A DNA stretch of 64,000 nucleotides, taken from the NCBI RefSeq assembly GCF_001679785.1, contig NZ_CP016290.1, positions 493,599 to 557,598 on the forward strand, given 5' to 3'. The translations under genes and the position numbers were made by a program. The stretch comes from Rhizobium leguminosarum (GTDB taxonomy: Bacteria; Pseudomonadota; Alphaproteobacteria; Rhizobiales; Rhizobiaceae). The notes under the pieces were generated by a model. The model worked only from the letters and a program-made list of their open reading frames with translations. It ran no database searches and was not told where the DNA came from. Shown here in pieces: positions 36,298 through 57,859 of this stretch (its first letter is position 1; each line of letters starts with the position of its first letter).

Positions 36298-37005
36298 TTA
36301 CTCCGCCATTGACAACAATGTCTGCGACCAGCTCTCTTTCTTATTCCGGGCACGAAGATTACCCTCCAGCACAAGATCAGGAACGCAGTAAATTATCGCT
36401 CTCAATTGCCGATCAACATTTGCGATCGCCCCATTCTTGTTTCGCTTATCAATAAGCTCCAAAAGCTCGTTCATTTCATCTCTGATATACGATAGACGCT
36501 CCGGCCGTTGCAAGTCCAAAAAGCGAATGTATCTCGTCCGAATGTTGAACTCATGAACGAGGTCAAGCATTCTTCCGTTGTTCCCAGCCTCTGCGACCCC
36601 TTCATAAAATACCTCGAGGAACTGCCCGAACAAGTCATAGTCGTCAGACCTGGGGATCGTTGGAAGCACCGGCCACGTCCTAGAATGCTCATCTAGGTTT
36701 TCTCTAATAACATGCTGGAGGATTGTGTTGGCAACACCATATTCATCCGAGATTTTCTTTGTATCGAGTTTCTTGGTGTAGTAGCCATTGCGCGGAGAGC
36801 CCACGATGTAATTTTCGGTTTCGAGCTGAATCAATGCCTCGCGCACCGGGGTAACGCTGGTTTCAAGGAGATCGCTGATTGCACTCGGATCGAGTCGCGT
36901 ATCAGGGGGCACCTGAAAATCGACAACAAGCTTCTTCAATCCTTTATAGGCTTTATTGGCCTTGGACCGGGCCCATCCTGGTTTATCTTCGTGCTGCTTA
37001 TACAT
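36298..37005 (-). CDS. GntR-family regulator (FCD subgroup)
   Basis: A 235-residue regulator starting at the ATG behind GAGGAG (MYKQHEDKPGWARSKANKAY). The winged helix is DPSAISDLLETSVTPVREAL then IQLETENYIVGSPRNGYY. The C-terminal helical domain (YDLFGQFLEVFYEGVAEAGN, IRTRYIRFLDLQR) is FCD-like, though shorter and with less clear metal-binding His residues. It probably responds to an organic acid. No catabolic genes are adjacent, so the target is unknown. Confidence 0.75.
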   Translation of the reverse strand: MYKQHEDKPGWARSKANKAYKGLKKLVVDFQVPPDTRLDPSAISDLLETSVTPVREALIQLETENYIVGSPRNGYYTKKLDTKKISDEYGVANTILQHVIRENLDEHSRTWPVLPTIPRSDDYDLFGQFLEVFYEGVAEAGNNGRMLDLVHEFNIRTRYIRFLDLQRPERLSYIRDEMNELLELIDKRNKNGAIANVDRQLRAIIYCVPDLVLEGNLRARNKKESWSQTLLSMAE

Positions 37006-37132
37006 GCGTTCTCCTCGGAGCATGGGTTCTGTTATTCAAAGAAGATTGAGCTGCAGCTCCACTCCTGGCGTTGGCATGTAAATTCTCCTCCATAGCGTAC
37101 CGCGGCATACATGCTCGCATTGTGGACGGGAA

Positions 37133-39375: not shown

Positions 39376-40307
39376 GAGCCTGACCGAAAAAGAGTTGAGT
39401 GAAATCAGCCAGTTGTGATTCTGTTTGTTTGCTTAGGACGAACGGAGACCACAATGGGCTGGACAGATTTCACCCGTCGGCAATATGCCCGACGCACAGT
39501 GCGGTATGCAAGCGATCTGACGGACCGGGAGTGGGGATTGATCTCGTCTTGCCTGCCTGGACCGAGGCGGTTGGGCAGGCCGCGCAGTACCGATCTTCGC
39601 GAGGTCGTGAATGCGTTGCTTTACATCGCCACGACGGGGTGCCAGTGGCGGATGATGCCCAGAGATTTTCCACCTTTTACAACTGTGCAGTCCTATTTCT
39701 ATGAATGGCGAGCGACAGGGTTATGGGGTCGGATCAACCATCATCTTGTGATGGAGGCGCGTGACTTGGAAGGTCGGGAAGCCTCGCCGTCTGCGGGCGT
39801 GATCGACAGTCAAAGCGTGAAAACCACGGAAAGCGGCGGAATTTCGGGCTATGACGCGGGCAAGAAGATAAAGGGACGCAAGCGTCATATCGTCGTCGAC
39901 ACGCTCGGACTGATGGTCGGCCTCATGGTTCACAGCGCCGATATTCAGGATCGCGATGGTGCATCTGCCGTTCTCAAAACCATTCTCAAGCGCTGGCCGT
40001 GGCTGAGACATATCTTCGCCGATGGTGGTTATGCCGGACCGAAGCTGAAGGGCGCACTGCAAAAGATCGCTGCGTTCACTCTCCAGATCGTCAAGCGGAC
40101 CGACAAGGCCAAGGGCTTCGAGGTTCTGCCGCGTCGCTGGGTAGTGGAGCGCACCTTCGCATGGCTTGGCAGATGCCGACGATTGGCGAAGGATTGGGAA
40201 AAGTCCGTCGCCTCAGCCGAGGCCTGGATCACTATCGCCCACATCCGGGTCCTGACACGACGCTTGGCAAGGTACGGATATCGTTGAAACCTTTTCGAGT
40301 CAGACTC
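39376..40307. mobile_element. IS5-family (IS1031-like) insertion sequence, complete
   Basis: About 932 bp. Inverted ends GAGCCTGACCGAAAAAG and (reverse) GAGTCTGACTCGAAAAG are flanked by a TGA duplication (39373-39375 and 40308-40310), as expected for a TNA target. It carries one intact transposase. It ends 25 bases before the pepM start codon. Confidence 0.9.
39454..40287 (+). CDS. IS5-family transposase, intact
   Basis: A 277-residue transposase, start MGWTDFTRRQYARRTVRYAS after a GGAG box. DDE residues: SAGVIDSQSVKTTESGG (Asp), RHIFADGGYAGPKLKGALQK (Asp) and WVVERTFAWLGRCRRLAKDW (Glu in the Y/W-R-K/E-type motif). All are in place and no frameshift is seen, so the element may be mobile. Confidence 0.93.
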   Translation: MGWTDFTRRQYARRTVRYASDLTDREWGLISSCLPGPRRLGRPRSTDLREVVNALLYIATTGCQWRMMPRDFPPFTTVQSYFYEWRATGLWGRINHHLVMEARDLEGREASPSAGVIDSQSVKTTESGGISGYDAGKKIKGRKRHIVVDTLGLMVGLMVHSADIQDRDGASAVLKTILKRWPWLRHIFADGGYAGPKLKGALQKIAAFTLQIVKRTDKAKGFEVLPRRWVVERTFAWLGRCRRLAKDWEKSVASAEAWITIAHIRVLTRRLARYGYR

Positions 40308-40332
40308 TGAGTTTTATGAAGGAGCTATGACA

Positions 40333-41256
40333 ATGAACAAAACAATTTCATTTCCGATGAATGCAGAAGTCTTACCGATGAGCACATCGTCGACATCCCT
40401 TCGCGAACTTATTCTCTCCAACGACCTGGCTTTCCTGATGGAAGCCCATGACGGCCTCTCGGCCGCGGTCGCAGAACGGGCAGGCTTCCGCGGGCTTTGG
40501 GCCTCCGGTCTCTCCATCTCTTCGGCGCTCGGCTATCGCGACGCCAATGAGGCAAGCTGGACGCAGGTCGTCGATGTCGTCGAACGCATGGTCGATGCCA
40601 CCAATATTCCGGTCCTCGTCGACGGCGATAGCGGTTTCGGCAACTTCAACAATGCCAGGTTGCTCGCCAAAAAGCTCGAACAACGGGGCGCTTCGGGCGT
40701 CGCGATCGAGGATAAAGACTTCCCGAAGATGAACTCCTTCGTCGGCGACCGGCATCCGCTGGCCGAGATTGACGAATTCTGTGGCCGTCTGAAAGCCGTG
40801 AAGGATACGACCGGCCCCGACTTTGTCCTTGTGGCCCGTATCGAGGCGCTCATCGCCGGCCATGGCCTGGACGAAGCCCTGACACGGGCTCACGCCTATG
40901 CAAAGGCCGGCGCGGACGCCATTCTCATTCATTCCCGCAAGGCTGTTGCCGACGAGATCCTGGCTTTTGCAAAGGAATGGAACAACAAGCTGCCGGTCGT
41001 GATCGTGCCGACGAAATATTACAGAACGCCGGTTGATGCCTACCGCAAGGCCGGAATCTCAACGGTCATCTGGGCCAATCACACAATGCGGGCAGCCATT
41101 GCCGGCATGCGCGACATCTGCGGTCGCATCCAATCGGAAGAGAGCATTGCCGGGATAGAAGACCAGGTGGCCGGCCTCGACGAGCTCTTCAGCCTGGTCG
41201 GATATGACGAACTGGCCCAGGCCGAAGAGCTCTATCTTCCCAAGCAGAAGCCGTAA
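40333..41256 (+). CDS. pepM: Phosphoenolpyruvate phosphomutase
   Basis: PepM makes the C-P bond by isomerising PEP to phosphonopyruvate, the entry to nearly all natural phosphonates. The 307-residue protein belongs to the isocitrate lyase superfamily and carries the diagnostic EDKX5NS motif as EDKDFPKMNS near residue 126, with GLWASGLSISSALGYRDANE, DGDSGFGN, VARIEALIAGHG and VPTKYYRTPVDAY. The ATG at 40333 lies eight bases after GGAG; one at 40327 is too close. It heads a seven-gene operon. An IS5-type element ends 25 bases upstream, so its native promoter is displaced. Confidence 0.95.
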   Translation: MNKTISFPMNAEVLPMSTSSTSLRELILSNDLAFLMEAHDGLSAAVAERAGFRGLWASGLSISSALGYRDANEASWTQVVDVVERMVDATNIPVLVDGDSGFGNFNNARLLAKKLEQRGASGVAIEDKDFPKMNSFVGDRHPLAEIDEFCGRLKAVKDTTGPDFVLVARIEALIAGHGLDEALTRAHAYAKAGADAILIHSRKAVADEILAFAKEWNNKLPVVIVPTKYYRTPVDAYRKAGISTVIWANHTMRAAIAGMRDICGRIQSEESIAGIEDQVAGLDELFSLVGYDELAQAEELYLPKQKP

Positions 41257-41314
41257 CGGTCGCCGGACGGCGTCGTCACTATTCCAACAAACAATCGTCG
41301 TGGAGGGCGCGCAC

Positions 41315-42499
41315 ATGCTTGCGCAACGGACAAACCTGTTCGGTTCATCGGGAACGGCTGCCGCACGCGCAGCCGCAAAGGCGGCGGCCGACGCCGGCAA
41401 GGAGATCATCGATCTGACCGCCGGCGAGATCTGGAGCGATCTCGCTCCGACCATTCGTGAGGGTGCGATCGAGGCGATCAATCGGGGCGTCAACCGCTAC
41501 ACGGATACCGTCGGAATGATGGAGCTGCGCGAGGCGCTCGCCAGAAAAGTATCCCTCGATACCGGCCAGATCTGGAAGGCCGAGGAGATCGCCGTCACCT
41601 CCGGCGCGAAGCAGGCGCTCTTCAATGCGGCCATGGTTCTGCTCAACCCCGGCGACGAGGTCATCATCCCGGCACCCTACTGGACGACCTTCCCCGCCCA
41701 GGTCCTGATTGCCGGCGGCACGCCGGTCTTCGTCGACACCCGTTCCAACGGTTACGTGCCGCGGTTCGAGGACATCAAGGCAGCCGTGACCGACCGGACG
41801 CGGGCGATCGTCATCAACACGCCGAATAATCCGACAGGCGCCGTCTATGACGTCCAGACGCTGATCGGCATTGCCGAACTCGCAATCAACCGCAATTTCT
41901 GGATCGTCTTCGATGAGTGCTACGGCGATTTCGTGCATGGGGATCACAGGCATCACCTGATCGTGTCGGTGGTGCCGGAGGTGCGGGCGCGCACGCTGAT
42001 CGTCAATGCTTTCAGCAAATCCCTGGCGCTAACCGGCTGGCGGATCGGCTATCTCGCCGGCCCAAAGGAGGTGATCAATGCCGTCAAGGCCCTGCAGTCG
42101 CACACGACGTCCAATCCCAATGTGATTGCCCAGCACGCCGTGTTGGCCCATCTGCAGGGGGGAGACGGTACCTACGAGAGCAAGTTGCGCTCGCAGCTTG
42201 CGAGCGCCCGCCAGGTAGGGCTCAATGCGCTTTCGTCGCTGACGCGGGTTCCCGTTCCGAAGGCGCAGGGCGGCTTCTACTTCTATCTCGACCTTTCGGA
42301 TCTGTTGAAACCGGCGTCGATGAACGGGGCCGCCGTAACCGCCGACGAAGTCGTCAATTCGCTTCTCTCCGAAGCCGGCGTTGCGGCGGTGTCCGGCACC
42401 GTATTCGGTGATCCCGCTGGCCTTCGGCTCTCCTATGGCATCCCGCCCGAAAAACTCGAGGCCGGCCTCTCTCGGCTCGTCGATGTCCTCAACGCCTGA
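41315..42499 (+). CDS. Class I/II aminotransferase
   Basis: A 394-residue PLP enzyme of the aspartate aminotransferase group (fold type I). The PLP lysine is in NAFSKSLALTGWRIGYLAGP; NTPNNPTGAVYD and FDECYGDF are also typical. The start is fixed by GGAGG eight bases before the ATG; the frame upstream overlaps pepM. As no phosphonopyruvate decarboxylase lies in the operon, I infer that it transaminates phosphonopyruvate to phosphonoalanine, which would pull the unfavourable PepM reaction forward. Acting on phosphonoacetaldehyde (to aminoethylphosphonate) is the alternative if a decarboxylase lies elsewhere. Confidence 0.85.
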   Translation: MLAQRTNLFGSSGTAAARAAAKAAADAGKEIIDLTAGEIWSDLAPTIREGAIEAINRGVNRYTDTVGMMELREALARKVSLDTGQIWKAEEIAVTSGAKQALFNAAMVLLNPGDEVIIPAPYWTTFPAQVLIAGGTPVFVDTRSNGYVPRFEDIKAAVTDRTRAIVINTPNNPTGAVYDVQTLIGIAELAINRNFWIVFDECYGDFVHGDHRHHLIVSVVPEVRARTLIVNAFSKSLALTGWRIGYLAGPKEVINAVKALQSHTTSNPNVIAQHAVLAHLQGGDGTYESKLRSQLASARQVGLNALSSLTRVPVPKAQGGFYFYLDLSDLLKPASMNGAAVTADEVVNSLLSEAGVAAVSGTVFGDPAGLRLSYGIPPEKLEAGLSRLVDVLNA

Positions 42500-42542
42500 G
42501 AATGACGCCGTCGTCCCACACTATTCAAAAAAGGGGAAGGAA

Positions 42543-43343
42543 ATGAACAACTACCGTCCGAGGAAAGCCGTTATTCTTGCCGCCGGCTTCGGGTCCCGCC
42601 TGCGGCCCTTGACCGATCTGCGCCCCAAGCCGCTGGTCGAGGTCAATGGAACGCCGATCCTCCACAACGCGCTGCGTAACCTGGAGGAAGTCGGCGTCGA
42701 AGAGGTCACGATCGTCGTCGGCTATCGCAAGGATGCGATCCAGTATGCATGCGGCAAACGCTTCGGCCAGTTGGAAATCAACTACATGGAGTCGAGCGTC
42801 TTCGACAAGACCGGCAGCGCTTATTCGCTCTGGCTGGCGCGCGAAACCCTGCTTCAGGGGGACTGCTATCTGGTAGAGGGTGACGTCTTCTTCGAAGTCG
42901 ATGCACTGCGCGCGCTGCTGATGGGCGACGCGGCAAACACATCAGCAGTGGCACCTTTCGACGCCTCTATGGAGGGCTCCGCCGTCACTCTCTCCGACGA
43001 CGGCTACATCGCGGAAGTGCGCATGAAGCAGACGGCCGCAAACCTGATCGACGGGGCGCCACGGCTCTTCAAGACGATGAACCTGATCCGTCTGTGCTCC
43101 GCGGATCTTCGCGCCAAGATCGTGCCCTTCCTCGACGAATTGATCGGGACCGGAGCCGTCAAGGCCTACACGGAGGAACTCTTCGCCAATCTCATCGAAC
43201 GGCGTGGGCTGCGTATGGCGGCTGCGCGTTGCGATGATCTCAGATGGTATGAAATCGATAGCGCTGAGGACCTCCGCATCGCAGAGTCAATTTTCTCGCG
43301 CCCCGCCGCTTCGGATGGCCTTGCCGTCGTGGCGGCAGAATAA
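42543..43343 (+). CDS. Nucleotidyltransferase, LicC/PntC-like
   Basis: A 266-residue NTP transferase. The signature AVILAAGFGSRLRPLTDLRP then KPLVEVNGTPILHNALRNLE starts at residue 9; YLVEGDVFFEVDALRALL holds the metal-binding Asp and WYEIDSAEDLRIAE the second one. The closest types I recall are phosphocholine or 2-aminoethylphosphonate cytidylyltransferases. In this operon it probably activates a phosphonate as a CMP ester, the substrate for the phosphatidyltransferase next door. GGGGAAGGAA precedes the ATG. 12 bases separate it from the next gene. Confidence 0.85.
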   Translation: MNNYRPRKAVILAAGFGSRLRPLTDLRPKPLVEVNGTPILHNALRNLEEVGVEEVTIVVGYRKDAIQYACGKRFGQLEINYMESSVFDKTGSAYSLWLARETLLQGDCYLVEGDVFFEVDALRALLMGDAANTSAVAPFDASMEGSAVTLSDDGYIAEVRMKQTAANLIDGAPRLFKTMNLIRLCSADLRAKIVPFLDELIGTGAVKAYTEELFANLIERRGLRMAAARCDDLRWYEIDSAEDLRIAESIFSRPAASDGLAVVAAE

Positions 43344-43355
43344 GGAGGCTGATCA

Positions 43356-43967
43356 ATGCTGCGCTACCTCATTGATCCCGCCAACGCCATCACAACGAGC
43401 GGACTGTTGTTTTCGGCGATCAGCCTTTTCATGGCTGTGTCGGACCGTCTCGAAATTGCCATGGCGGCTGCCCTTTGGGCGGTCCTCGCCGACCATCTGG
43501 ACGGCATTGTCGCAAGCCGCACAAGAAACCGCCGTCCAGACTTTGCTAAAATCGGCAAGAGCCTTGATGGCTTCGGCGATATCATCTACGGCGCGGTGCT
43601 CCCCGCAGTCGTCATCATCCAACTCAGTGACAAATCTGTTCTTTCGTTCAGCACCGCCACTGCCCTGCTATTGGCCGGCGCAATCCGGCTAAGCTATTTT
43701 GCAAATTTCGGGCGATCCGAGGACGGCCGGTTCCTCGGCGTGCCTCTGTCATACGACGTCCCGCTTTTGGCACTTGTATTCCTGGTGAAACCGCTTCTGC
43801 CTCCGGAGCTGTTTCAAACAATGACAAACATTGGGTTTCTGTTGTTAGCGGGTGCGCACGTTGCGTCTATCCGCGTGCCGCCGCCAAACGGCGCGATGTA
43901 CGCCGCAATTTCCATTTTTGCGATTTCCGCCTCGAGCTTCCTGCTCATGCGGGGACTGTCGGCATGA
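43356..43967 (+). CDS. CDP-alcohol phosphatidyltransferase family protein
   Basis: A 203-residue membrane protein with about five or six hydrophobic helices. The family motif DGxxARx8GxxxDxxxD is present with one change: DGIVASR, then GKSLDGFGD; the Arg after Ala is shifted by one. The four metal-binding Asp residues are kept. These enzymes move a phospho-alcohol from a CDP ester to a second alcohol. Behind a cytidylyltransferase it could attach the phosphonate to a lipid or another alcohol at the membrane. Start has GGAGG nearby and follows the previous stop by 12 bases. Confidence 0.82.
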   Translation: MLRYLIDPANAITTSGLLFSAISLFMAVSDRLEIAMAAALWAVLADHLDGIVASRTRNRRPDFAKIGKSLDGFGDIIYGAVLPAVVIIQLSDKSVLSFSTATALLLAGAIRLSYFANFGRSEDGRFLGVPLSYDVPLLALVFLVKPLLPPELFQTMTNIGFLLLAGAHVASIRVPPPNGAMYAAISIFAISASSFLLMRGLSA

Positions 43968-44116
43968 CCGTGTGCGGCTGATCGGGCGGTGACTGAACAG
44001 CACGTCAGTGTCTTAAGGGATGTGGCTCTTCCTCAGATCTTTGCCCAGGAAGTCCGAACCAAATCCGCAACTAGGCCTCGGCTTTGCGAGGCGAAGATAA
44101 CGAACGAGAGTCTAAG
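43968..44116. other. Intergenic leader before the first asparagine-synthetase-like gene
   Basis: 150 bases, the longest gap inside the operon. No hairpin terminator is visible. The ribosome binding site for the next gene is weak (GAGAG). Confidence 0.4.
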
Positions 44117-45901
44117 ATGGCTGCAATTTACGGTCTCTTCGGTGTTAAGCGCGAAGCGGTCCTACTTAAGATGGAACGGCTTCTCGATCACCACGGCAGG
44201 GAGAAGGCCCGCGAGATCTTGGCAAGTGGAGGGCTCGGGTCCGTGGGGCAAGACCCGGGCGGTTGCGGCCGCCACGGACAGGTGGTCGCGGCCATCGCCG
44301 GCATGCCCTTCCGGCTCACTCGCGGCGGCACTATTGCCGCTGTCGGCGCCGGTGAGCTGGCCAGAGCGTTCAGCGATCTTGGTTTCGAGGCGCTCGCAGA
44401 TTTGGACGGTCAGTTTGCTGTCGCCATATGGGATGGCATGAGCGAGCGGCTTTATCTCGCTCGCGACGCGTTTGGAACGATCCCGCTTTATTTCTCCTGT
44501 GGGGCAGAATTTTCGATCTTCGCGTCAGAGTATAAAGCCCTCTTGGCATACGAAGCCGTTCCCGCTCAACCCGACAGGGTCTCAATCAGCTCATTCTGCT
44601 CGCGCGGATGGGTACCGGCAGGAAGAACCTTCTTCGGTGGAATCAAACCGGTGCTCCCCGGAACCTGCATGGTATTGAAGGGCGGAACGCTCGAAGCGCA
44701 CAGGTTCTATCCGCAAGCTGCAATCGACAATCCTCCGATCGTTCCGGTATCGCCTGGTGCTCTCGTGTCTGAGATCGAGACCGGAGTCGAGAGGATCATT
44801 GCTCTTGCCGGAGACCGGCGTGTGGGGATGTCCTTGAGCGGCGGGATTGATTCTGCGTTCATGGCCACCCTTGTGAGCCGTCATTTGGGCCATCGAAAAT
44901 TGCACTCCTTTACCGTCGGTTTCGGAAAAGGAGATCCGGAAATGGAAGGAGCCCGTGAGACCGCCGAGTTTCTGAACAGCGCTCACCATGAACTGGTGAT
45001 CGAACCCGCTGATCTGCCGGCGCTCCTGGACACGACCGTGGATGCGATGGAAGACCCAGGGGGGTATGATCAGAGTTGCAGCTTATTTTCTCTGTGGAAA
45101 GAGGCTCGCAATCACGTCGATGTACTGGTCTCTGGTAATATTAGCGATTCATTATTCGCTGGTATGGCTTCGCACCGGCGCATATGGCGCGCCAACGCAT
45201 TTCCAACGCTCTGGCCCTGGCTTCGCGAAGTAGAACGCGCCGAGGCCGAAGGAGGGACGCCTCGCGGCTTCTGGCGCCTTGTCTGGCAGTTTTTGGGAAA
45301 GAGAAGCGAACCATTCCCATGCGGCGCCGAAATAGACCTGTCATCGCTTCCGCCTGATCTATGGCGGACGTCTTCCCGCCGACAGACGCTGTACGAACAT
45401 CTTGATCTGACGCTGCAGCATTGGGACGGGCGGATGGGATCTCAAGTCTTGATCGCTGCCCATTCCGGCATCCTCCTCGCCATGCCTTTCAGCCACCGGG
45501 GAATCGTCGAATTTGCATTGAGAGTTCCCGACTCGCAGAAGGTATCAAGAAAGCGCGACAAGATAATCCTAAGAGAGGCGGCCAATCAGGTCCTGCCCAC
45601 GGCCGTCGCGAGCCGGCAGAAACGTGTCCAACAGCTTCGCTATGATGAGACGTTTGCCGACACACTGAACTTTCTCGTCGATCGATATCTTCATCCCAAA
45701 GACGTTGCAGCCCGTGGACTGCTCGACCCAGCGAAGATCACGGACATTCACCAAGGAGGGAAGTCTGTTTACTCCAAGCTCGAGGTCCAGAAGCTTTGGA
45801 ATGCCATCTGCACCGAGGTCTGGGCGCGAAACTTTCTTGACCGGCGTTCCGACTATCTCTCCACCGATCCCAACGTCCTAGAACGAGGTGTCGTGTCGTG
45901 A
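44117..45901 (+). CDS. Asparagine synthetase-like ATP-dependent amide ligase, glutaminase-dead
   Basis: A 594-residue AsnB-family protein. The N-terminal glutaminase-type domain (residues 1-190) begins MAAIYGLFGV, where true AsnB has MCGI; the catalytic Cys2 is missing, so it cannot use glutamine. The C-terminal synthetase domain keeps the ATP pyrophosphatase loop SLSGGIDSAFMATLVSRH (near residue 238), so it can probably adenylate a carboxylate. This pattern is known from beta-lactam synthetases and similar amide-forming enzymes in natural product pathways. Stop codon overlaps the next gene in GTGA. It may form an amide on phosphonoalanine or a derivative. Confidence 0.85.
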   Translation: MAAIYGLFGVKREAVLLKMERLLDHHGREKAREILASGGLGSVGQDPGGCGRHGQVVAAIAGMPFRLTRGGTIAAVGAGELARAFSDLGFEALADLDGQFAVAIWDGMSERLYLARDAFGTIPLYFSCGAEFSIFASEYKALLAYEAVPAQPDRVSISSFCSRGWVPAGRTFFGGIKPVLPGTCMVLKGGTLEAHRFYPQAAIDNPPIVPVSPGALVSEIETGVERIIALAGDRRVGMSLSGGIDSAFMATLVSRHLGHRKLHSFTVGFGKGDPEMEGARETAEFLNSAHHELVIEPADLPALLDTTVDAMEDPGGYDQSCSLFSLWKEARNHVDVLVSGNISDSLFAGMASHRRIWRANAFPTLWPWLREVERAEAEGGTPRGFWRLVWQFLGKRSEPFPCGAEIDLSSLPPDLWRTSSRRQTLYEHLDLTLQHWDGRMGSQVLIAAHSGILLAMPFSHRGIVEFALRVPDSQKVSRKRDKIILREAANQVLPTAVASRQKRVQQLRYDETFADTLNFLVDRYLHPKDVAARGLLDPAKITDIHQGGKSVYSKLEVQKLWNAICTEVWARNFLDRRSDYLSTDPNVLERGVVS

Positions 45902-46785
45902 TCGGGTTCATCGGACTTGGTGAGGTGGTTCGCGCCATGGCAGCCGGAATCCGAGAGAAAACCGGAGAGAATGTCGTGGCTCTTTACAGGCCCACGATTT
46001 CGCAACGCAATTTCGAAGACGCCCGCGAGGCGGGTATCGATGTCGTTACGACTGCAGAGGAGCTCGCTGCGCGGGCTTCGGTCATATTCAGCGCTGTCAC
46101 ACCGATGACGGCGGGTGAGGTTTGCCGAAATGTCGCCCCTCACCTCACCTCAGAGCATCTATATGTAGACTGCAATTCCGTGACGATGCAGCAGAAAATA
46201 GAAAACGCTCGTTTCGCGGAAGCGTCCGAAGCCGATTTTGTCGACGCTGCCCTGTTCGGCGTCGTCGCCGAACTACGCCAGGCTACGCCAATTATCGCCA
46301 GCGGACGCCACGCAGCGCGCCTCATGCCGATCAGCAAGCACTACGGAATGAACGTGCGGATAGCCGGTCCCGAAGTCGGCCAAGCGAGCGCGATCAAGAT
46401 GTTACGGAGCGTCATATTCAAGGGGATGGCAGCCCTTTTCATCGAGTCCCTCACTGTCTCGCAAAAAATCGGGGTCAGCAACCAGGTCATCGATACGATC
46501 CAAGAAACCTACCCGGATCTTCAATGGAAAGAATTCATCCAGATCTTCATCTCGCGGACGATACTGCATGCGGGCCGCAGAGCTGAAGAGCTTGGCAACT
46601 GCGCACAAACTCTGCAAGAGGTCGGGGGATATGCGGACATGTCACTTGCTGGCGTGACGGCGCTGCAGCGCCTCGCCGGGTACAACCTCGAAACCGCGAT
46701 AGGCGTTCGGGATCAAGATCTTGATAGCATTCTATCTATATTAAGTGACGCGTATTTTCAAAAGCCGATCAACAGGACCGGCTGA
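45898..46785 (+). CDS. 6-phosphogluconate-dehydrogenase-like oxidoreductase (DUF1932-type C-terminus)
   Basis: A 295-residue protein of the beta-hydroxyacid dehydrogenase superfamily. The Rossmann loop GFIGLGEVVRAMAAG opens the protein; VFSAVTPMTAGEVCRNVAPH is the next conserved block. The usual GGxxGA segment is DAALFGVV and the Lys is in ASAIKMLRSVIFKGM. The C-terminal domain (WKEFIQIFISRTILHAGRRA) is of the DUF1932 kind. Starting GTG overlaps the previous stop, so it is tightly coupled to the amide ligase. It likely oxidises or reduces an intermediate of the phosphonate. Confidence 0.82.
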   Translation: MIGFIGLGEVVRAMAAGIREKTGENVVALYRPTISQRNFEDAREAGIDVVTTAEELAARASVIFSAVTPMTAGEVCRNVAPHLTSEHLYVDCNSVTMQQKIENARFAEASEADFVDAALFGVVAELRQATPIIASGRHAARLMPISKHYGMNVRIAGPEVGQASAIKMLRSVIFKGMAALFIESLTVSQKIGVSNQVIDTIQETYPDLQWKEFIQIFISRTILHAGRRAEELGNCAQTLQEVGGYADMSLAGVTALQRLAGYNLETAIGVRDQDLDSILSILSDAYFQKPINRTG

Positions 46786-46859
46786 CCTGCACTCGTGTTC
46801 AAGACCAATCGAGCAATCGATTGTAGACACTGGACGTGCTGCGAACATGGAGAAGCCCA

Positions 46860-48221
46860 ATGACAGCCTTCAGGGGAATTTTGGGGAGCAACGTCACCGA
46901 CGATGCGTTGTGTTTGTTCGATGGCGGAGCGGCTCCCGAAGCCTTTTCCATTTGCGGTAGCGTGTTTGGCCTCGGCACGGCGGAAAAGGCAACGCTCATT
47001 ACACGCCACGATTATATTATCGCGATCTGCGGCTGCCCCTCGTTCGACGTTGAAGGACTCGCTCAGCCGCTGAGCGCCGATCAAGTCGCACCCTCCATCC
47101 TTCGGGGCGGCGCAGACTTAGTGTCGAGGCTTTCTGGCTGTTTTTCCTTGGCACACTGGAGCATGAGAGATGCATGCCTGACCCTTTATCGGGACCCCTC
47201 CGGGACATATCCCTTGTCCTACCAGCAACGCGACGGAAGACTGATCTTTGCCAGTGACAACGGGGGAGCGGCCGCCGATTGGTTGCCGGTGCCGCCGGGA
47301 GAAGTCCTCGTATTCGATAAGTGCGCTGCCCTGTTGTCTCGGGAGCAAACCGATAAATGCAAGCCGACCAACATTTCAGTGGTCGGCGGCAGAACCGCAC
47401 AGCTTATCCAAAGCATGCGCCTAGGGGAGTGGTCCGCCGTGGTTTTAGACGACCGCAAACTGTCAAAGGACTTGGCGTTCAGGTTGCGCTGCTTTGCTGC
47501 CGACGTCCCCCTCCATTCATTTTCGGCTGGACTTGGAAGGGACGATCCAAGCGTCCTTGTTGCCCGCGACGCGGCATCCCGTGTGGGAACGGTTCATCAC
47601 GAAATCATCGTCCACCCCAGCGCCCTTAAGGAATTGCTGCCTGCCGTGGTCAAAATCCTTGGTAAGCCTGGCGGAAACATTCGTACCTGCTTGCATTATG
47701 CGCTTTGGCGTGAAGCGGCCGAGTACGTGCAGAAGTTGTTCGTCGCCCACACAGCACGAACCCTTTGCAATGGCGCAGTCGTCGCAAGCGGGGATCAAAC
47801 TGATGAGCCGACCACCCAAAAGATGCTCGCGAAAACACTTGGACTCGAGCTTCATTTTCTTTCGATCGGCCGAGAAATGCTGCCGCCGACGATCGGCGGC
47901 CCGAACTCGCCGCAGGTTGGTGATCGGAACATCTCCGCCCGCAGTGTGGTTGAGACAAGCACGGGAAAGAACGGCTTGGGGCAGTATCGTAAGACCTTGG
48001 CCGATGCCTTAAGCGAGCTTGCTGATACCTATCTGGCGGGACCCACACTTCTCCGGACCGCAATCGATAAACACGTTATCGACGATCTTAAAAGGTCCGA
48101 TTGCGAGCCATATGACGAAAAGAGATTCCGCAATCTGTGGGAGGCGGTCACGGCTGAAGTCTGGGCAAGGCAATGCGCCGCGGTACGGTCTCGGGGGCGT
48201 CCGGCCGGTACGTTGCAATAG
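46860..48221 (+). CDS. Degenerate asparagine synthetase-like protein (pseudoenzyme)
   Basis: A 453-residue paralogue of the gene at 44117. It starts MTAFRGILGS, again without Cys2. The glutaminase-type fold remains (DLVSRLSGCFSLAHWSMRDA, LYRDPSGTYPLSY). Where the synthetase loop SGGxDS should be, it has WSAVVLDDRKLSKDLAFRLR, so ATP binding is lost. The alignment then resumes (FSAGLGRDDPSVLVARDAAS beside FTVGFGKGDPEMEGARETAE) and ends in the shared AEVWAR motif. I infer a structural or regulatory partner of the active paralogue. GGAGAAG precedes the ATG. It is intact, not frameshifted. Confidence 0.8.
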   Translation: MTAFRGILGSNVTDDALCLFDGGAAPEAFSICGSVFGLGTAEKATLITRHDYIIAICGCPSFDVEGLAQPLSADQVAPSILRGGADLVSRLSGCFSLAHWSMRDACLTLYRDPSGTYPLSYQQRDGRLIFASDNGGAAADWLPVPPGEVLVFDKCAALLSREQTDKCKPTNISVVGGRTAQLIQSMRLGEWSAVVLDDRKLSKDLAFRLRCFAADVPLHSFSAGLGRDDPSVLVARDAASRVGTVHHEIIVHPSALKELLPAVVKILGKPGGNIRTCLHYALWREAAEYVQKLFVAHTARTLCNGAVVASGDQTDEPTTQKMLAKTLGLELHFLSIGREMLPPTIGGPNSPQVGDRNISARSVVETSTGKNGLGQYRKTLADALSELADTYLAGPTLLRTAIDKHVIDDLKRSDCEPYDEKRFRNLWEAVTAEVWARQCAAVRSRGRPAGTLQ

Positions 48222-48301
48222 TGGACTTTTGGCGAGTGTGGCAGCTCTCTTGATCGCCTGTTCAATGCGAATTTATTTGAGGAAACCAGGTAAAAACGAC
48301 G

Positions 48302-49219
48302 TCAGGTCTCCAGGCTTACGGTATCCATCCAGATCGGATTCGACCAGGCCTTGCGGCCATACCGATCGGTAATCGTTATACGCAGGCGCGGAACTTCACT
48401 CACGGGCTTCCGCTCCAGAATCGTAAGGGTCTGATCGGCCGAGACACTGCAGACCGACTTGTTCCCGTGCCAGCCCGCGCTAACGCGTTGTATCGGCGAA
48501 CTTCTGATGATGATCTGATCGGCGGTTATTTCGATCGAATGGATTTCGGGTCCCTGGCTGGAATAATAATGTCCCTGCTTTAAACTGGAAAGGATGGATG
48601 CGGGATCGTTGGACTTGGCCCTGACCTGGATCCACCCGCCGAAGGCATCAGGGAATTTGAAGTGAGCATCATCCGACGCGAAGCCTGTCAGTCGGCGGCC
48701 TTGCAGAAGTAGATTGTCCAGCAAGCCCCAGCCATCACCCTTGTCGAAGCCAAGCTCACAGTTGTTGTTGTAAATCTCGACGGCATGCGCGGCGGTAATC
48801 GTATTAGCGTCCTCCTCGGTCAGGCCGTACCACGCGGGATGCGCAATGCCGACGAACGCTCCAGCCGCCGCCGCCCGCGCCGCGATTTCAGGTCCGTTTT
48901 CGTTCGCAGAAGGGCGAGCGAAGTCCAATGGAAGGCCAACCGCCAGGAGATGCCAAATCTCCCATTTCGACGTCCGCGGAACGTGCAGTTCTGCGCCGAT
49001 GAGCGTCGAAAATGTATCGGTTTGAAATGGTCTGCTGTCGGTTATGCTCCAACCAAATCGATCCATGAAGTGGTCACTGATTGTCAGAAAATCATATCCG
49101 CGCAGGCGATAAGCCTCCGTCAAGTCCGCGGGCGACAGCATGCCATCGGACTCTGTCGAATGGGTATGAAGATTACCCTTGTAGAACCTGCCAGGTAGAT
49201 CGAAAGGTGAGATTATCAT
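48302..49219 (-). CDS. PHP-domain metal-dependent phosphoesterase
   Basis: A 305-residue PHP protein. Metal-binding motifs appear in order: NLHTHSTESDG, TISDHF, GAELH, IAHPAWYG and FASDDAHF. The C-terminal part is beta-rich. I start at the ATG before IISPFDLPGRFYKGNLHTHS, the family start; a GTG at 49258 is possible. Last gene of the transporter operon and convergent with the pepM operon. PHP enzymes hydrolyse phosphomonoesters or diesters, so it may remove a nucleotide or phosphate from an imported phosphonate. This is inference. Confidence 0.85.
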   Translation of the reverse strand: MIISPFDLPGRFYKGNLHTHSTESDGMLSPADLTEAYRLRGYDFLTISDHFMDRFGWSITDSRPFQTDTFSTLIGAELHVPRTSKWEIWHLLAVGLPLDFARPSANENGPEIAARAAAAGAFVGIAHPAWYGLTEEDANTITAAHAVEIYNNNCELGFDKGDGWGLLDNLLLQGRRLTGFASDDAHFKFPDAFGGWIQVRAKSNDPASILSSLKQGHYYSSQGPEIHSIEITADQIIIRSSPIQRVSAGWHGNKSVCSVSADQTLTILERKPVSEVPRLRITITDRYGRKAWSNPIWMDTVSLET

Positions 49220-49229
49220 CACGAGAATT

Positions 49230-50084
49230 CTAGTGTTTTGCGATACTGAATTTGTCACCGAGCCGGTCGCCGATCTGCGCGATGAGGAGGCACAGAAGAC
49301 AGATCAGCAGACCTGGCGCCAAACAGAGCCATGGTTGCGTCATGATTGCCGCCCGCCCTTCACTCACCATGAGGCCCAGACTGGCTCCTGGAGGTTGGAC
49401 ACCCATTCCAAGAAAGCTCAGACCGCTTTCGAGCAGAACCACCCCAGGGAATGTCAATGTCATCTGAGCAATGATGATGCCAATGATGGACGGAAGAAGG
49501 TGTCGCACATAGATGCGGGTTGCACCGGCACCGGTGATCCGCAGCGCGACGACGAAGTCCATATTGAGCGCGCTTTTCACTGCGCCTCTCACCAGTCTGG
49601 CGTATGTCTCCCACCCGTGCAGGCCTATGATAACAATGAAGGTCGCTATGCCCCCTCCAAAGATCGCCAAGGCTGTCAGCGCGATGATCAGGAAAGGAAT
49701 CGAGGACTGAACATCAATCAAGCCCAGCACGATTTCCTCGACAATGCCGCCAAAATGCGCCGCAAAAAGGCCGACGGCCGACCCGACCATGGCTCCAAGA
49801 AACGTGCCGATGATGCCTATCAACAGGCTTGTTTGCATGGAATACAACATACGCGAGAAAATGCCGCGCCCCAGGGTGTCCGTCCCTAACAGGAACGTGG
49901 CTCCCCCGCTCTGCGACATCGGCGGGAGCAAACGCCGCAAGAGATCCTGGTCGTTGATTCCCGACGGTGCAATGTAGCTGGCTCCGGCGGAAAGCACCGC
50001 CAAAGCAGCCAGGATGGCCAGGCTTGCGGCAAACGTAGCGTCGGACGCTGGTATAGTGCGGATAGAAGAGAGCAGCCGGGACAC
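49230..50084 (-). CDS. ABC transporter permease, DppC/OppC type
   Basis: A 284-residue inner membrane protein with about six helices. HFLLGTDTLGRGIFSRMLYS-type sequence (here ATFLLGTDTLGRGIFSRMLY) and the EAA loop (ALRITGAGATRIYVRHLLPS) are DppC signatures; LESGLSFLGMGVQPPGASLG is the other hallmark. The GTG at 50084 with an AGGTAGG box just behind the upstream stop is the likely start. It pairs with the DppB-type permease to form the channel of an oligopeptide/nickel-type importer. Confidence 0.9.
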   Translation of the reverse strand: MSRLLSSIRTIPASDATFAASLAILAALAVLSAGASYIAPSGINDQDLLRRLLPPMSQSGGATFLLGTDTLGRGIFSRMLYSMQTSLLIGIIGTFLGAMVGSAVGLFAAHFGGIVEEIVLGLIDVQSSIPFLIIALTALAIFGGGIATFIVIIGLHGWETYARLVRGAVKSALNMDFVVALRITGAGATRIYVRHLLPSIIGIIIAQMTLTFPGVVLLESGLSFLGMGVQPPGASLGLMVSEGRAAIMTQPWLCLAPGLLICLLCLLIAQIGDRLGDKFSIAKH

Positions 50085-50091
50085 GAGCGAC

Positions 50092-51009
50092 CTACCTTTT
50101 CCGGAGCGCCGGATTGACGATGACGCACAAGACGTCGGCGATAAGATTGATGGAGACGATGATCGCCGACACGACAATCAGAATAACCTGGACGATTGCC
50201 ACTTCGCGCGACGCTGCCGCAGTGACGAGCAGTCGCCCAATGCCTGGCCATGCGAAAATCGTTTCGGTGATCACGGCGCCCGCAAAAAGCTGACCGGCAT
50301 TCAGGCCCAAAATCGTGATGATAGGAACAGCGGCATTCGGCAACGCTTCTCGGACAACTCGATGGAACAGGGTGAAGCCCCGCGCGCGCGCGGCATCTAT
50401 ATAGGGTTCCTTTAAAACCTCGATCATTGCGGCTCGCGTCACCCGAGCGATCGTCGCGCCTCCCCATAATCCCAGCGTCATCGTCGGCAAGAGCAAGTGC
50501 CAATGGGTCCCATAACCCGAGCTTGGCAGCCAGCGAAGCGCGACAGAGAAGAGAAGCATCAGAAGCAGTCCGACCAGAAAGTTCGGCATTGCATGGACGA
50601 CTGCAAGCAGTGCTGAAATCAAGCGATCAACGACTTTTCTATGATAAACAGCGGCAATCACTCCGATCGACACGCCGAAGACAATGGCCGTCAGGAAGGA
50701 GGTTGCGCCCAATAGCAGTGTGCTGGGTAAACGCTCGAAAACAACTTTGATTGCGCTGCGTCCGTCCACGTAGGAGACCCCCAGATGGCCACGCAACACA
50801 TCACCGAGAAAAGTGAAATACTGAACGGGTATGGGCTGATCGAAACCCCATTTTTGGCGGTACATCTCAACGATGTCAGTCGGCGTATCATCCGGCAGCA
50901 GCATCGTTGTCGGGTCGCCTGTGGCTCGCAACGCGAAGAAAACGGCGCTGACGACAATCCAAAGCGTGATCAATCCTCGGAGGGATTTGACAAGGAGAGT
51001 GGTCGCCAC
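50092..51009 (-). CDS. ABC transporter permease, DppB/OppB type
   Basis: A 305-residue membrane protein. It starts with the family N-terminal helix (LLVKSLRGLITLWIVVSAVF) and the periplasmic segment with GFDQPIPVQYFTFLGDVLRG then HLGVSYVDGRS. The EAA loop is AARARGFTLFHRVVREALPN. Three bases separate it from the upstream ATPase stop. It works with the DppC-type permease. Confidence 0.9.
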   Translation of the reverse strand: MATTLLVKSLRGLITLWIVVSAVFFALRATGDPTTMLLPDDTPTDIVEMYRQKWGFDQPIPVQYFTFLGDVLRGHLGVSYVDGRSAIKVVFERLPSTLLLGATSFLTAIVFGVSIGVIAAVYHRKVVDRLISALLAVVHAMPNFLVGLLLMLLFSVALRWLPSSGYGTHWHLLLPTMTLGLWGGATIARVTRAAMIEVLKEPYIDAARARGFTLFHRVVREALPNAAVPIITILGLNAGQLFAGAVITETIFAWPGIGRLLVTAAASREVAIVQVILIVVSAIIVSINLIADVLCVIVNPALRKR

Positions 51010-51012
51010 GGG

Positions 51013-51921
51013 TCACGCCCCCTTCAAGGCCAGCTCAACCGCATTGAAAGACGGCCGGATCACATTCTGCCGATCAAGGCTGGTTTCCCGCTCGGACGGA
51101 TTGGGCAGTGCGTCGTCCATGACGACGCGCTGACGGTTATTCAGCGTAGCGGCAACGAGACTTGCGGTGGTAGGATGAGACGGCGCTGCGAAAACCGCGC
51201 GCGTTTTTCCTTCCTCGACGAGTTTGCCTTCGGAGATCACGGCTACCCGGTCGCAAAGATGCTCCACGATCGCAATATCATGAGAGATGAACAAGCAGGC
51301 GATGTTGAGATTGCGTTGCATACGTCGGATGAGATTTATGATCCCGGCCTTAACGGAGACGTCGAGCGACGCTGTTGCTTCATCGAGGATCAGAAAACTT
51401 GGTCGTAAAACCAGGCAGCGCGCCAGGGCTACACGCTGAGCCTGCCCTCCGCTGAGCTGCCTCGGTCGACGGTCAAACAGGCTTTCGGAAAGTCCAACTT
51501 CAAGTAGAGCTTCGCGTGCGCGCTGTCTGCGTTCGCTCGCTGCTCCCAACCTATGTATATGTAAGCCTTCGGCGACCTGAGATAAGATGTCCATTTTAGG
51601 GCTCAAGGAACCGAAAGGATTTTGGAAGACCATTCCAATCTCCCTGCGCGATCTCCTGCGGTCCACTCCATGGAGGTCCGAGATGTCGGTTGACCGAAAT
51701 CGGATGTTACCGGCATCACACGGGACCGCGCCTGCGATGATCGACGCCAAAGTCGATTTGCCGGAACCCGATGGCCCTACGATGCCGAGGACTTCGCCTC
51801 TGGATACCGAAAACGACACGTCCTGGAGGACCTGCAGCGATCTGGACTTAGCGAACAGGTTCTCCTTGGGGAGCTTGTGGCGCTTGCTGATGCCAACGAC
51901 GCTCAATATGGGTTCGGCCAT
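51013..51921 (-). CDS. ABC transporter ATPase, DppF/OppF type
   Basis: A 302-residue ATPase. Walker A is GPSGSGKST in VLGIVGPSGSGKSTLASIIA, the signature is RQLSGGQAQRVALARCLVLR and Walker B is FLILDEATASLDV. The start at 51921 has GGAG seven bases ahead; upstream in-frame sequence overlaps the other ATPase gene. The usual C-terminal oligopeptide-ATPase extension is short. Confidence 0.9.
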   Translation of the reverse strand: MAEPILSVVGISKRHKLPKENLFAKSRSLQVLQDVSFSVSRGEVLGIVGPSGSGKSTLASIIAGAVPCDAGNIRFRSTDISDLHGVDRRRSRREIGMVFQNPFGSLSPKMDILSQVAEGLHIHRLGAASERRQRAREALLEVGLSESLFDRRPRQLSGGQAQRVALARCLVLRPSFLILDEATASLDVSVKAGIINLIRRMQRNLNIACLFISHDIAIVEHLCDRVAVISEGKLVEEGKTRAVFAAPSHPTTASLVAATLNNRQRVVMDDALPNPSERETSLDRQNVIRPSFNAVELALKGA

Positions 51922-51923
51922 CG

Positions 51924-52946
51924 TCATTCTCCATTTGGTCGGTGGCAAGCAAACATCCGTTCGTCTTCGCCCCACCGAAGCGCCGGGCGGACGTTGCGGC
52001 AAATCCGATCCTGAACGGCGCACCGATCCGCAAAGGCGCAACCGACGACATCATTCTCGATATCGGGGACTATTCCATCGAGAGCAGGAAGCCAGTCTGT
52101 TTGAACGCCTCGATCGGGGGCGGAGTTAAGCAGTGCTTGGGTATAAGGATGTCGAGGGTCGGTCAGGACGCGGTCGGCTGCCCCTGTTTCCACCGTCCTA
52201 CCGGCATACATTACCGCGACCGTGTGCGCGACTTCTCGCACGACGGCAAGATCATGTGATATCAACAGAATGGCCATTCGTGTCTCTGCTTGTAGATCGC
52301 GAAGTAGCGTCAGTATTTCGAGCTGGACGTGCGGATCCAGCGCGGTCGTGGGCTCGTCCGCGATGAGAAGCGATGGCTTCGTCGCAATTGCAAGACCAAT
52401 CATGATCCGCTGTTTCATCCCTCCAGACAGCTCATGCGGATACGAGAGGAGCCTGTCGCCGCTCCGCGCAATCTGGACCTGGTCCAAAAGACGCTTCCCT
52501 TCCAGTCGTGCTGCGGCATCACTCATTCCCGCCCGACCACGCAAGAGATGGACGAAATGGGTTTGAACGGTCATCGTTGGATTAAGCGAACGATGGGGGT
52601 CCTGAAAGACCATCCCGATCTTTCGACCTCGTACATCATCCATCAGCCGGTTCGACAGTTTGAGGAGGTCAAGACCTTGGAATTTTATCGAGCCTTTGAC
52701 CATGATCGGCGGCGCGTCCAGGCGCAAAATCGCCCGCGACATGAGTGTCTTCCCGCTTCCAGATTCCCCAACGAGCGCAGTCGTCCGACCTATCTCCACA
52801 TCCAGATTGACTTCCTTCACGGCAAAGGCTTGCCCCCGTCGAACGGGGACAAGAACTGCGAGGTTCTGCACTTGAAGCAACGGCGAGGAGCCGAAGGCTG
52901 CGTTCGCGTCGAACTCGCTCAAAGGTTTCACTACTGCAAGGCTCAT
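51924..52946 (-). CDS. ABC transporter ATPase, DppD/OppD type
   Basis: A 340-residue ATPase. Walker A is GESGSGKT in TALVGESGSGKTLMSRAILR; the signature is ELSGGMKQRIMIGLA and Walker B SLLIADEPTTALD. The C-terminal region has the cysteine cluster of this family (CAFADRCAVQDRICRNVRP), which in relatives binds an iron-sulfur cluster. It overlaps the binding-protein gene in ATGA and the next ATPase gene by a few bases. Confidence 0.92.
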   Translation of the reverse strand: MSLAVVKPLSEFDANAAFGSSPLLQVQNLAVLVPVRRGQAFAVKEVNLDVEIGRTTALVGESGSGKTLMSRAILRLDAPPIMVKGSIKFQGLDLLKLSNRLMDDVRGRKIGMVFQDPHRSLNPTMTVQTHFVHLLRGRAGMSDAAARLEGKRLLDQVQIARSGDRLLSYPHELSGGMKQRIMIGLAIATKPSLLIADEPTTALDPHVQLEILTLLRDLQAETRMAILLISHDLAVVREVAHTVAVMYAGRTVETGAADRVLTDPRHPYTQALLNSAPDRGVQTDWLPALDGIVPDIENDVVGCAFADRCAVQDRICRNVRPALRWGEDERMFACHRPNGE

Positions 52947-54496: not shown

Positions 54497-54543
54497 GATC
54501 GGCCACCTTGGTTCATCGTTCAGACGTTCCATCTATGGAATGA

Positions 54544-54558: not shown

Positions 54559-54755
54559 GACGTTTTCAAATTTTTCTTCTCGAAGAAGACTCATTGGACG
54601 AAGGCCGAGGTCAATCGTTTCATCCTATTGATTTACTGTTATCTTCCACATACAGTGAGTCCAACCAACGGTATCCCAGGTTGATTAATTTCAGGAACGA
54701 CCGCCTAACGCGCGAATTATTCATTGGTACGTTCCAGCTTTTGAAAGGAATAACC

Positions 54756-55869: not shown

Positions 55870-56142
55870 ATGACTGACAATGATGACAAGAAGGGTGGTC
55901 ACGACAAGACCATCACCATCGTGGTGAACGGCACCCCGCATCAGGTGCCAAAAAAGGACGAGCTGACCTATGCCGAGGTGGTGACCTATTTCGACCCGAC
56001 CTATCCGCAGCATCCGCAGACGGTCTACTCCGTCACCTACACCCGCGGTGACAAGCCCAAGGAGGGCACCTTAGCCCCCGCCGGCTCGGTCAAAGCCAAG
56101 GACGGGATGGACTTCCATGTTATTCCAACTAGCGAATCATAA
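55870..56142 (+). CDS. Ubiquitin-like protein (multiubiquitin-type Ubl)
   Basis: A 90-residue single Ubl domain. KTITIVVNGTPHQVPKKDEL is the first beta-hairpin; TYAEVVTYF is the helix. The middle (QHPQTVYSVTYTRGDKPKEG) and FHVIP complete the beta-grasp pattern of the multiubiquitin family. It ends FHVIPTSES without a terminal Gly-Gly. Its 3' end overlaps the E1 gene by 26 bases. With the E1-like and DUF6527 genes it forms a compact bacterial Ubl operon. Relatives of such operons occur in defence islands, but the role here is unknown. Confidence 0.75.
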   Translation: MTDNDDKKGGHDKTITIVVNGTPHQVPKKDELTYAEVVTYFDPTYPQHPQTVYSVTYTRGDKPKEGTLAPAGSVKAKDGMDFHVIPTSES

Positions 56143-57693: not shown

Positions 57694-57859
57694 GCCATGT
57701 GCATGGGAACGGGTCGTGGCCGTGAAATCGACCGTCCCTTGGCCTTCAGCGCGCCTATGCAAATAAAATATTGGGAAGGACCTTTACTTTAGCGCTTGCT
57801 TCTGAGGTATAGTATGAAGCTAGAAACTACGCGTCTTTGCTCAACAGAGCGGCTGTGTA
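57694..57859. other. Short intergenic region behind the Ubl operon
   Basis: No gene. The first 60 bases after the DUF6527 stop are followed by an AT-richer stretch that may hold a promoter. No clear terminator hairpin. Confidence 0.35.

Follow-up and report, generated by a model that had tools for sequence, protein, structure and literature searches.

What would a bacterium of the root nodule do with a phosphonate operon that stands next to a complete import system? This question is raised by a window of 64,000 nucleotides from Rhizobium leguminosarum (the whole stretch that was analysed, contig NZ_CP016290.1, positions 493,599 to 557,598; G000:C5:493599-557598 in our numbering of genomes and contigs, running to the contig end at 557,598). 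Seven genes headed by pepM, the gene for phosphoenolpyruvate (PEP) mutase, form an operon in it. Our leading but still tentative answer is that the product of this operon is a soluble phosphonate ester with a nodule role like that of an opine or rhizopine. We prefer such a role because an importer of the AccA (agrocinopine receptor) type, exchangeable esterases, a phosphonopyruvate hydrolase and nodule control fit together best under it. The proposed synthesis and use genes are linked on the symbiosis replicon: the importer adjoins the operon, and the PepM match (533997) follows nifH (C5:465424-466248) at a distance of 67.7 kb. Since nifH shares contig C5 with pepM, the window belongs to the replicon that bears nif.

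The Operon and Its Predicted Chemistry

All seven open reading frames (ORFs) are open and collinear on the plus strand (40327-48221), with intergenic gaps of 58, 43, 12, 149, -4 and 50 bases in order. Together with the family matches, this confirms the initial annotation, which had described a closely spaced, collinear pepM operon of seven genes. Its assignment of the first gene to a PEP mutase with the full EDKX5NS motif is equally borne out: the protein reads EDKDFPKMNS at the motif EDKxxxxxNS and reaches 355.4 bits against TIGR02320 (cut-off 319.55), and its residues 21-306 of 309 align with the solved PEP mutase 1m1b (359 bits, with phosphonopyruvate hydrolase 2dua at 206.7). Motif and scores rule out a methylisocitrate lyase or a phosphonopyruvate hydrolase. 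An AAGGAG element is better spaced for the start at 40333, chosen by the earlier reader, than for the ATG at 40327.

PepM would convert PEP to phosphonopyruvate, which the second enzyme would pull on to phosphonoalanine. The closest solved relatives of this second protein are aspartate aminotransferases (6f77, 257 bits); the phosphonopyruvate transaminase PnaA, on the route to phosphonoalanine, belongs to the same superfamily (PMC11867202). A family scan of the seven proteins found no decarboxylase. This absence, together with a second enzyme of aspartate-aminotransferase type as in the PnaA route, supports the earlier proposal that the pathway leads to phosphonoalanine. The phosphonoalamide pathway of Streptomyces (PnaD/PnaA) likewise joins a PEP mutase to such an aminotransferase (PMC11867202), the likeness of the operon enzyme to PnaA being one of superfamily level. 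Unlike that pathway, the seven operon proteins include no ATP-grasp ligase match; a cytidylyltransferase, a CDP-alcohol transferase and an AsnB-like ligase are found instead.

For the third protein, the closest solved relative is the CTP:phosphocholine cytidylyltransferase LicC (1jyk, 69 bits), while 6pd1, named a nucleotidyl transferase/aminotransferase and presumably the PntC structure, comes tenth in the match list with 35 bits. A third enzyme of cytidylyltransferase type argues for the predicted nucleotide activation, in which phosphonoalanine would become CMP-phosphonoalanine. Phosphonyl tailoring of the Pnt/PntC kind also has a LicC-like cytidylyltransferase beside pepM (PMC6697681); that route activates 2-aminoethylphosphonate, whereas the window operon has no decarboxylase. 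The fourth protein scores 52 bits against NF038087 and 49 bits against TIGR00473, each below its own cut-off, and has no solved relative at E 0.1. We propose from its family that it transfers the phosphonyl group to an alcohol, such as a polyol. Overall, as far as sequence can tell, the enzymes most likely make CMP-activated phosphonoalanine and then an ester of some alcohol.

The remaining three genes encode AsnB1, a dehydrogenase and AsnB2. AsnB1, whose closest solved protein is the hydroxyamidotransferase 7ylz (106 bits), keeps SGGIDS and starts with MAAIYG, without the N-terminal catalytic Cys of glutamine amidotransferases; it is therefore likely to be an ATP-dependent ligase lacking glutaminase. 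Amide formation from glutamine by an AsnB-type ligase, as formerly suggested, is thus unlikely, since Cys2 is absent. AsnB2, which resembles AsnB1 at 26% over 299 positions, has neither the N-terminal Cys nor SGGxDS. Its only near-identical match in the plasmid collection is one record, the next of similar coverage standing at 24% over 88%, and the closest relative of AsnB1 in a large protein set (8000 candidates scored) reaches 36%. Because AsnB1 and AsnB2 have so few close relatives, we consider the last three genes a rare tail. Tail enzymes (in the window AsnB1, the dehydrogenase and perhaps AsnB2) would decorate the ester, lineage by lineage.

A Proposed Uptake Module of the Agrocinopine Type

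Genes for a PHP-type hydrolase and an importer of the Opp class run towards the operon, and a gene for a PhnF-like regulator stands at their far end. We propose that the hydrolase is the esterase of an uptake module, and that importer, hydrolase and regulator would together serve the uptake and opening of the ester or of a closely related compound. The binding protein scores 307 bits against AccA (4ra1), with the next family at 113; its counterpart at locus L092 gives 274 and 102 bits. AccA is the receptor for agrocinopine and agrocin 84 (PMC4526662). With the binding protein nearest AccA, we set aside the idea that the Opp genes encode an ordinary peptide importer.

Among the phosphate contacts of AccA (Asn54, Ser419, Tyr375 and Tyr376; PMC4526662), the window protein keeps both tyrosines and Ser419 and has Ser in place of Asn54. 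The anchors of the pyranose O1 (Asn54, Asn284, Ser419 and Glu510; PMC4526662) read S, N, S and Y, so that the full set is not present. Tyr145 of AccA, kept in the pairwise alignment and not in the multiple one, was not used. We infer that the ligand of the importer may be a phospho- or phosphono-ester with a variable alcohol part. The acc system of agrocinopine catabolism on pTiC58 resembles the window in having an AccA-type binding protein, an ABC importer, an ester-cleaving enzyme and a regulator (PMC4526662). The window differs from it by the PHP-type esterase, the PhnF-like regulator, a ligand pocket kept only in part and proposed synthesis genes that are bacterial.

The triad [Y/W]-Y-S at AccA positions 375, 376 and 419 occurs in 15 of 17 linked family-5 binding proteins, 12 of these 17 being the window protein itself or picked by similarity to it, and some Opp loci ending before the binding protein. 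Elsewhere in the same genome, the triad is found in 1 of 30 other SBP_bac_5 proteins over the cut-off, the other 29 scoring 6-116 bits to AccA. The exception (C8:169631-170737, 273 bits to AccA) adjoins one of the two PF01663 genes over the cut-off in this genome, which suggests that this type of binding protein is accompanied by a phosphodiesterase also at a distance from pepM. The surrounding stretch (L142, C8:160500-180400) holds another importer operon of the AccA type, accompanied by a PF01663-type gene, and no pepM match; it is possibly a consumer-only module.

Distribution of the Core and Its Linked Genes

The genome contigs were scanned with patterns from PepM, which gave 77 loci without being exhaustive; stretches from annotated plasmids and genomes were added, six duplicates removed and the window counted in. 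PepM, aminotransferase and nucleotidyltransferase occur together at 45 loci (core loci), PepM and nucleotidyltransferase at 12, and at the 27 other pepM loci PepM stands without these partners. A match to the CDP-alcohol transferase lies somewhere in the locus at 42 of the 45 core loci, whose hosts are mainly Rhizobium, Sinorhizobium, Mesorhizobium, Agrobacterium and Bradyrhizobium. The tails vary by locus and include aminotransferases, methyltransferases, DgaE-like pyridoxal phosphate enzymes, AsnB-like proteins, short-chain dehydrogenases/reductases (SDR) and amidases, with exporter-type genes (EamA or MFS) in certain cases. On pTi_CFBP1905 (L081), the core is followed by genes annotated as ParB N-terminal, ornithine cyclodeaminase, alanine racemase and cysteine synthase family, a set that we take to resemble diaminopropionate synthesis.

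The initial annotation had called the make-up of the operon unfamiliar and had asked for a comparison of pepM neighbourhoods. This comparison divides the claim: the first four genes are widespread, being common to many rhizobia and some Ti plasmids, while the tail of three genes, and with it the full set of seven, is rare. Among the matches listed from the open-licence literature, with subscription journals mostly outside, we found no article that proposes a rhizopine or opine of phosphonate nature or that reports what the core makes. In the text consulted of PMC6421345, PMC8125078, PMC3732241, PMC3973600, PMC11511026 and PMC9973854, there are genes for the transport or breakdown of phosphonates or nothing of relevance; the operon does not appear there.

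Linkage was counted within 16.5 kb of pepM or in the stretch available, often only 9 kb per side. Of the 45 core loci, 23 have an importer (Opp-type at 14, sugar-type at 9), as do 6 of the 12 loci with PepM and nucleotidyltransferase and a single one of the 27 remaining pepM loci. For the PF01663 phosphodiesterase, the corresponding fractions are 11/45, 8/12 and 0/27, and for the PhnF-like gene 4/45, 6/12 and 0/27. When the first two classes are pooled, 20/57 against 0/27 loci have an Opp importer (p 1.1e-4), 19/57 against 0/27 the phosphodiesterase (p 1.9e-4) and 10/57 against 0/27 the PhnF-like gene (p 0.016), these p values being indicative only because the loci are related and their flanks unequal. 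At L049, L092 and L093, a relative of a PF00149 phosphoesterase stands beside the importer instead (the family was scanned in L024, the duplicate of L092), and we therefore consider the esterase to be drawn from three families: PF01663, PHP and PF00149. Six Bradyrhizobium loci (L050, L052, L054, L059, L060 and L069) carry pepM and the nucleotidyltransferase with no core-type aminotransferase nearby; there, a PhnF-like gene, a phosphodiesterase and an AccA-type importer are adjacent to pepM.

Possible Fate of the Freed Phosphonate

The freed phosphonate would be used via phosphonopyruvate hydrolase in some relatives, and the strain of the window could use a chromosomal C-P lyase: PhnJ is encoded on its largest contig, the chromosome, and the PEP mutase search of this genome gave no match to a phosphonopyruvate hydrolase. 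The hydrolase occurs at 3 of 45 core loci, 0 of 12 loci with PepM and nucleotidyltransferase and 0 of 27 other pepM loci. At L083, on an R. gallicum plasmid with nifHDK, a protein reading EDKTFPKVTS lies beside an aminotransferase gene, 8.5 kb from pepM; it scores 362.1 bits against the hydrolase model (just below the cut-off of 374.4) and 272 against PEP mutase. The EDKxFPKVTS type is found about 15 kb from pepM at L092 and L093, where the importer and another aminotransferase gene separate the two, and 24 kb from pepM on the contig of L098. A LysR-type regulator gene precedes the pair of hydrolase and aminotransferase at L092 and L099.

The same association appears across 394 genomes of the family, in which 12 have a PepM over the cut-off, 9 of them with the core (G008, G150 and G204 without it). 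Verified hydrolases are present in 5 of the 9 core genomes and in 4 of the 385 others (p 2e-7). If four unverified genomes (G004, G055, G070 and G205) are included, the counts become 5/9 and 8/385 (p 2e-6); G390 was excluded, its motif being EDKQHPKRNS. In two of the five core genomes with a hydrolase (G009 and G147), it lies on another contig than pepM; in G147, it is found on contig C33, where nifH is about 9 kb away, and a second PepM-like match on contig C26 reads EDKxxxxxNS.

Link to Nitrogen Fixation and Nodule Expression

NifH was found at E 1e-100 in 23 of these genomes (22 over the cut-off), and more often with the core: 5/9 against 18/385 (p 4.7e-5), or 4/8 with the genome of the window left out (p 4.5e-4). 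G257, with a truncated PepM (190 bits) and a partial nifH on the same contig, stands outside the core count, its nifH being among the 23. On single contigs, nifH and pepM are separated by 24, 32 and 42 kb in G064, G341 and G373; at L083, the distance is about 10 kb, and nif genes are also near L084.

Sites of the NifA/sigma54 type occur at 8 of the 45 core loci. The training sites for the -24/-12 element score 17.1-23.9 bits, and background matches of at least 11 bits number 0.095 per kb and strand. Five related Mesorhizobium loci (L005, L006, L008, L009 and L010) have two neighbouring TGT-N10-ACA boxes with a -24/-12 site of 15.3-19.6 bits, while L084 and L091 have one box and a site of 11.6 bits; L007 shows a 19.6-bit site without a box. 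L095 combines a box with a site of 21.0 bits, and 233 bases before and into its pepM are 83% identical to the upstream region of its own nifH. The shared stretch includes the -24/-12 site and the first codons, ATG TCA GGT CTG CGT (the pepM product starts MSGLR). Such a match of upstream region and first codons indicates that pepM of L095 stands behind a captured nifH promoter.

Expression data come from msi327-msi323 of Mesorhizobium loti R7A, on ICEMlSymR7A, which resembles the operon in having pepM and aatA first and asnB close by, and which is nodule-specific, nifA2-dependent and dispensable for fixation (PMC3538637). Gene names, numbering and the relatives L084 and L091 suggest that msi327-323 is the same core; these two Mesorhizobium loci have pepM, aminotransferase, nucleotidyltransferase and CDP-alcohol transferase genes with an AsnB. 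L084 differs from the window in its tail, made up of a methyltransferase and another AsnB type. In nodules of the wild type, the nifA1 mutant and the nifA2 mutant, in this order, lacZ fusions gave 827, 625 and 7.7 units for pepM, 2456, 2290 and 16.2 for aatA, and 862, 809 and 22.0 for asnB, with less than 20 units in broth; insertion mutants of all three genes were fully effective (PMC3538637). The stem 'phosphon' is absent from the main text of that article.

Rhizopines (mos/moc) are compounds made in the nodule, with the genes for uptake and use in the same bacteria. They are inositol derivatives, whereas the product proposed here is a phosphonate whose production and use are read from gene linkage. 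The word rhizopine itself occurs in PMC3538637.

Weighing the Possible Functions

Several observations weigh against an opine-like nodule compound. Paired NifA/sigma54 sites are lacking at 37 of the 45 core loci, that of the window included, and the authors of PMC3538637 judged direct NifA control highly unlikely. Certain core loci sit in hosts not known as nodulators (pTi plasmids, Methylosinus, Steroidobacter). The stretch available, often only 9 kb per side, shows no importer at 22 of 45 core loci, and the importer could serve another substrate; the binding proteins of L081 and L102 (2 of the 17 linked) are not AccA-like, most of the 17 having been picked by similarity. The cytidylyltransferase is closer to LicC, a phosphocholine enzyme, than to the single PntC-type structure matched. 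Finally, a transposase gene occupies the position of the promoter in the window.

This last point leads to a reading that we find doubtful but that fares best among the alternatives, namely that the operon is a silent remnant in this strain, without present function since a mobile element was inserted. The transposase gene ends 39 bases upstream of pepM and has probably cut the operon off from the promoter it once had; expression in the window strain is therefore doubtful, and the genes may be unexpressed here or transcribed from the mobile element. A NifA/sigma54 promoter was looked for at the window operon and none was found, nor was there any sigma-70-like match in 40100-48500. Against decay, all seven ORFs have remained open, third-position G+C is coding-like, and the same operon is present at 99.9% identity in a second record, NZ_CP018229.1 (R. 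leguminosarum from Vavilovia formosa).

Following the logic of Pnt, CMP-phosphonoalanine might instead be transferred to diacylglycerol or a glycan, yielding a phosphonolipid or phosphonoglycan of the cell surface. The LicC/PntC-like enzyme and the PssA-like transferase agree with such a product, and the phosphonate capacity of bacteria is mostly devoted to cell surfaces (PMC6697681). But the tail genes scanned (aminotransferases, methyltransferases, AsnB-like, DgaE-like, SDR, amidase and others) are not those of lipids or glycans, and the core has exporters, importers, esterases and phosphonopyruvate hydrolase linked to it; because of these genes, we place lipid attachment second and consider a surface phosphonate unlikely. 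Of the lipid or alcohol attachment initially envisaged, the CDP-alcohol transferase thus favours the general idea, with a lipid less likely than a soluble ester.

An antimetabolite also seems improbable to us, that is, a phosphonate antibiotic or phytotoxin directed against competitors or the host, for which hydrolases would give self-protection and the importer recapture. Phosphonoalanine peptides are antibacterial (PMC11867202), AccA lets agrocin 84 in (PMC4526662), and certain tails carry exporter-type genes. Self-protection, however, needs less than a complete importer and a regulator, and the M. loti pepM, aatA and asnB mutants are fully effective. It is very improbable that the operon runs in reverse, importing phosphonoalanine through the adjacent system, transaminating it to phosphonopyruvate and turning this into PEP by PepM, whose equilibrium lies more than 500-fold toward PEP (PMC12871164), as cytidylyl- and CDP-alcohol transferases have no role in that direction and L092 and L093 have a phosphonopyruvate hydrolase and a separate aminotransferase next to the importer.

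Other Features of the Window

The coordinates of the operon, the uptake module and two neighbouring genes are given in Table 1.

Table 1. Position and basis of assignment of the genes discussed, in window coordinates
Feature	Position	Strand	Basis and remarks
GntR/FCD regulator	36298..37023	-	related to the GntR gene that stands divergently next to pepM at related loci (39% to the copy of L004)
Transposase (DDE_Tnp_1, IS4/5-family DUF4096)	39415..40287	+	stops 39 bases short of the pepM ATG at 40327
PepM, phosphoenolpyruvate mutase	40327..41256	+	start 40327 or 40333; TIGR02320, EDKDFPKMNS, 1m1b
Class I/II aminotransferase, aspartate-aminotransferase type	41315..42499	+	PF00155; proposed phosphonopyruvate transaminase
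LicC/PntC-like nucleotidyltransferase	42543..43343	+	proposed CTP:phosphonate cytidylyltransferase
CDP-alcohol phosphatidyltransferase family, PssA/archaetidylserine-synthase-like	43356..43967	+	PF01066 24.4 bits, cut-off 22
AsnB1, AsnB-like ATP-dependent ligase (likely)	44117..45901	+	PF00733 178 bits (scanned from 44084); SGGIDS
NAD_binding_2 + DUF1932 dehydrogenase	45898..46785	+	family matches
AsnB2, degenerate AsnB paralogue	46836..48221	+	without SGGxDS
PHP-type metallohydrolase (CehA/McbA family)	48302..49258	-	NF038032 81.8 bits, cut-off 80; no Pfam match
ABC importer permeases and ATPases (OppC-, OppB-, OppF-, OppD-like)	49230..52946	-	OppD-like ORF 51924-52946 by similarity only
Solute-binding protein, AccA (agrocinopine receptor) clade	52943..54532	-	PF00496 247 bits
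PhnF-like GntR/UTRA regulator	54594..55511	+	TIGR02325 213.6 bits (cut-off 156.8); PF07702

Upstream of the operon, there is also a gene for a LacI-type regulator (37460-38464, plus strand); FixV of M. loti is likewise of LacI/GalR type (PMC3538637). Farther upstream, P450, SnoaL-like, SDR and luciferase-like genes (25092-31008, minus strand; one P450 matches only the C-terminal part of the profile) resemble the set directly upstream of pepM at L084 and L083. Beyond the PhnF-like gene, ThiF/DUF6791, DUF6527 and PLD-type genes (56117-60392, plus strand) possibly form a defence-type set. Elsewhere on contig C5, two copies of the first 31 nifH codons, identical to the full gene (C5:444643-444723 and C5:433091-433171; L086 and L087), represent duplicated nifH starts, perhaps promoters included.

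Possible Meaning for Rhizobial Biology

Beyond the window, we put forward a broader and more tentative possibility, a carbon-phosphorus opine family of nodule (perhaps gall) bacteria. Its members would be lineage-specific phosphonoalanine esters, built by one four-gene core with exchangeable tails and, in several lineages, induced together with nitrogen fixation. They would be regained through matching AccA-type importers, exchangeable esterases and either the hydrolase or C-P lyase, keeping phosphorus, carbon and nitrogen for kin. If this is true, a pepM operon common to many rhizobia would gain a function, and the strong nodule expression of pepM, aatA and asnB in M. loti would be accounted for along with their dispensability for fixation. 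It would also add a new chemical class of opines and rhizopines, favouring kin in plant-microbe systems.

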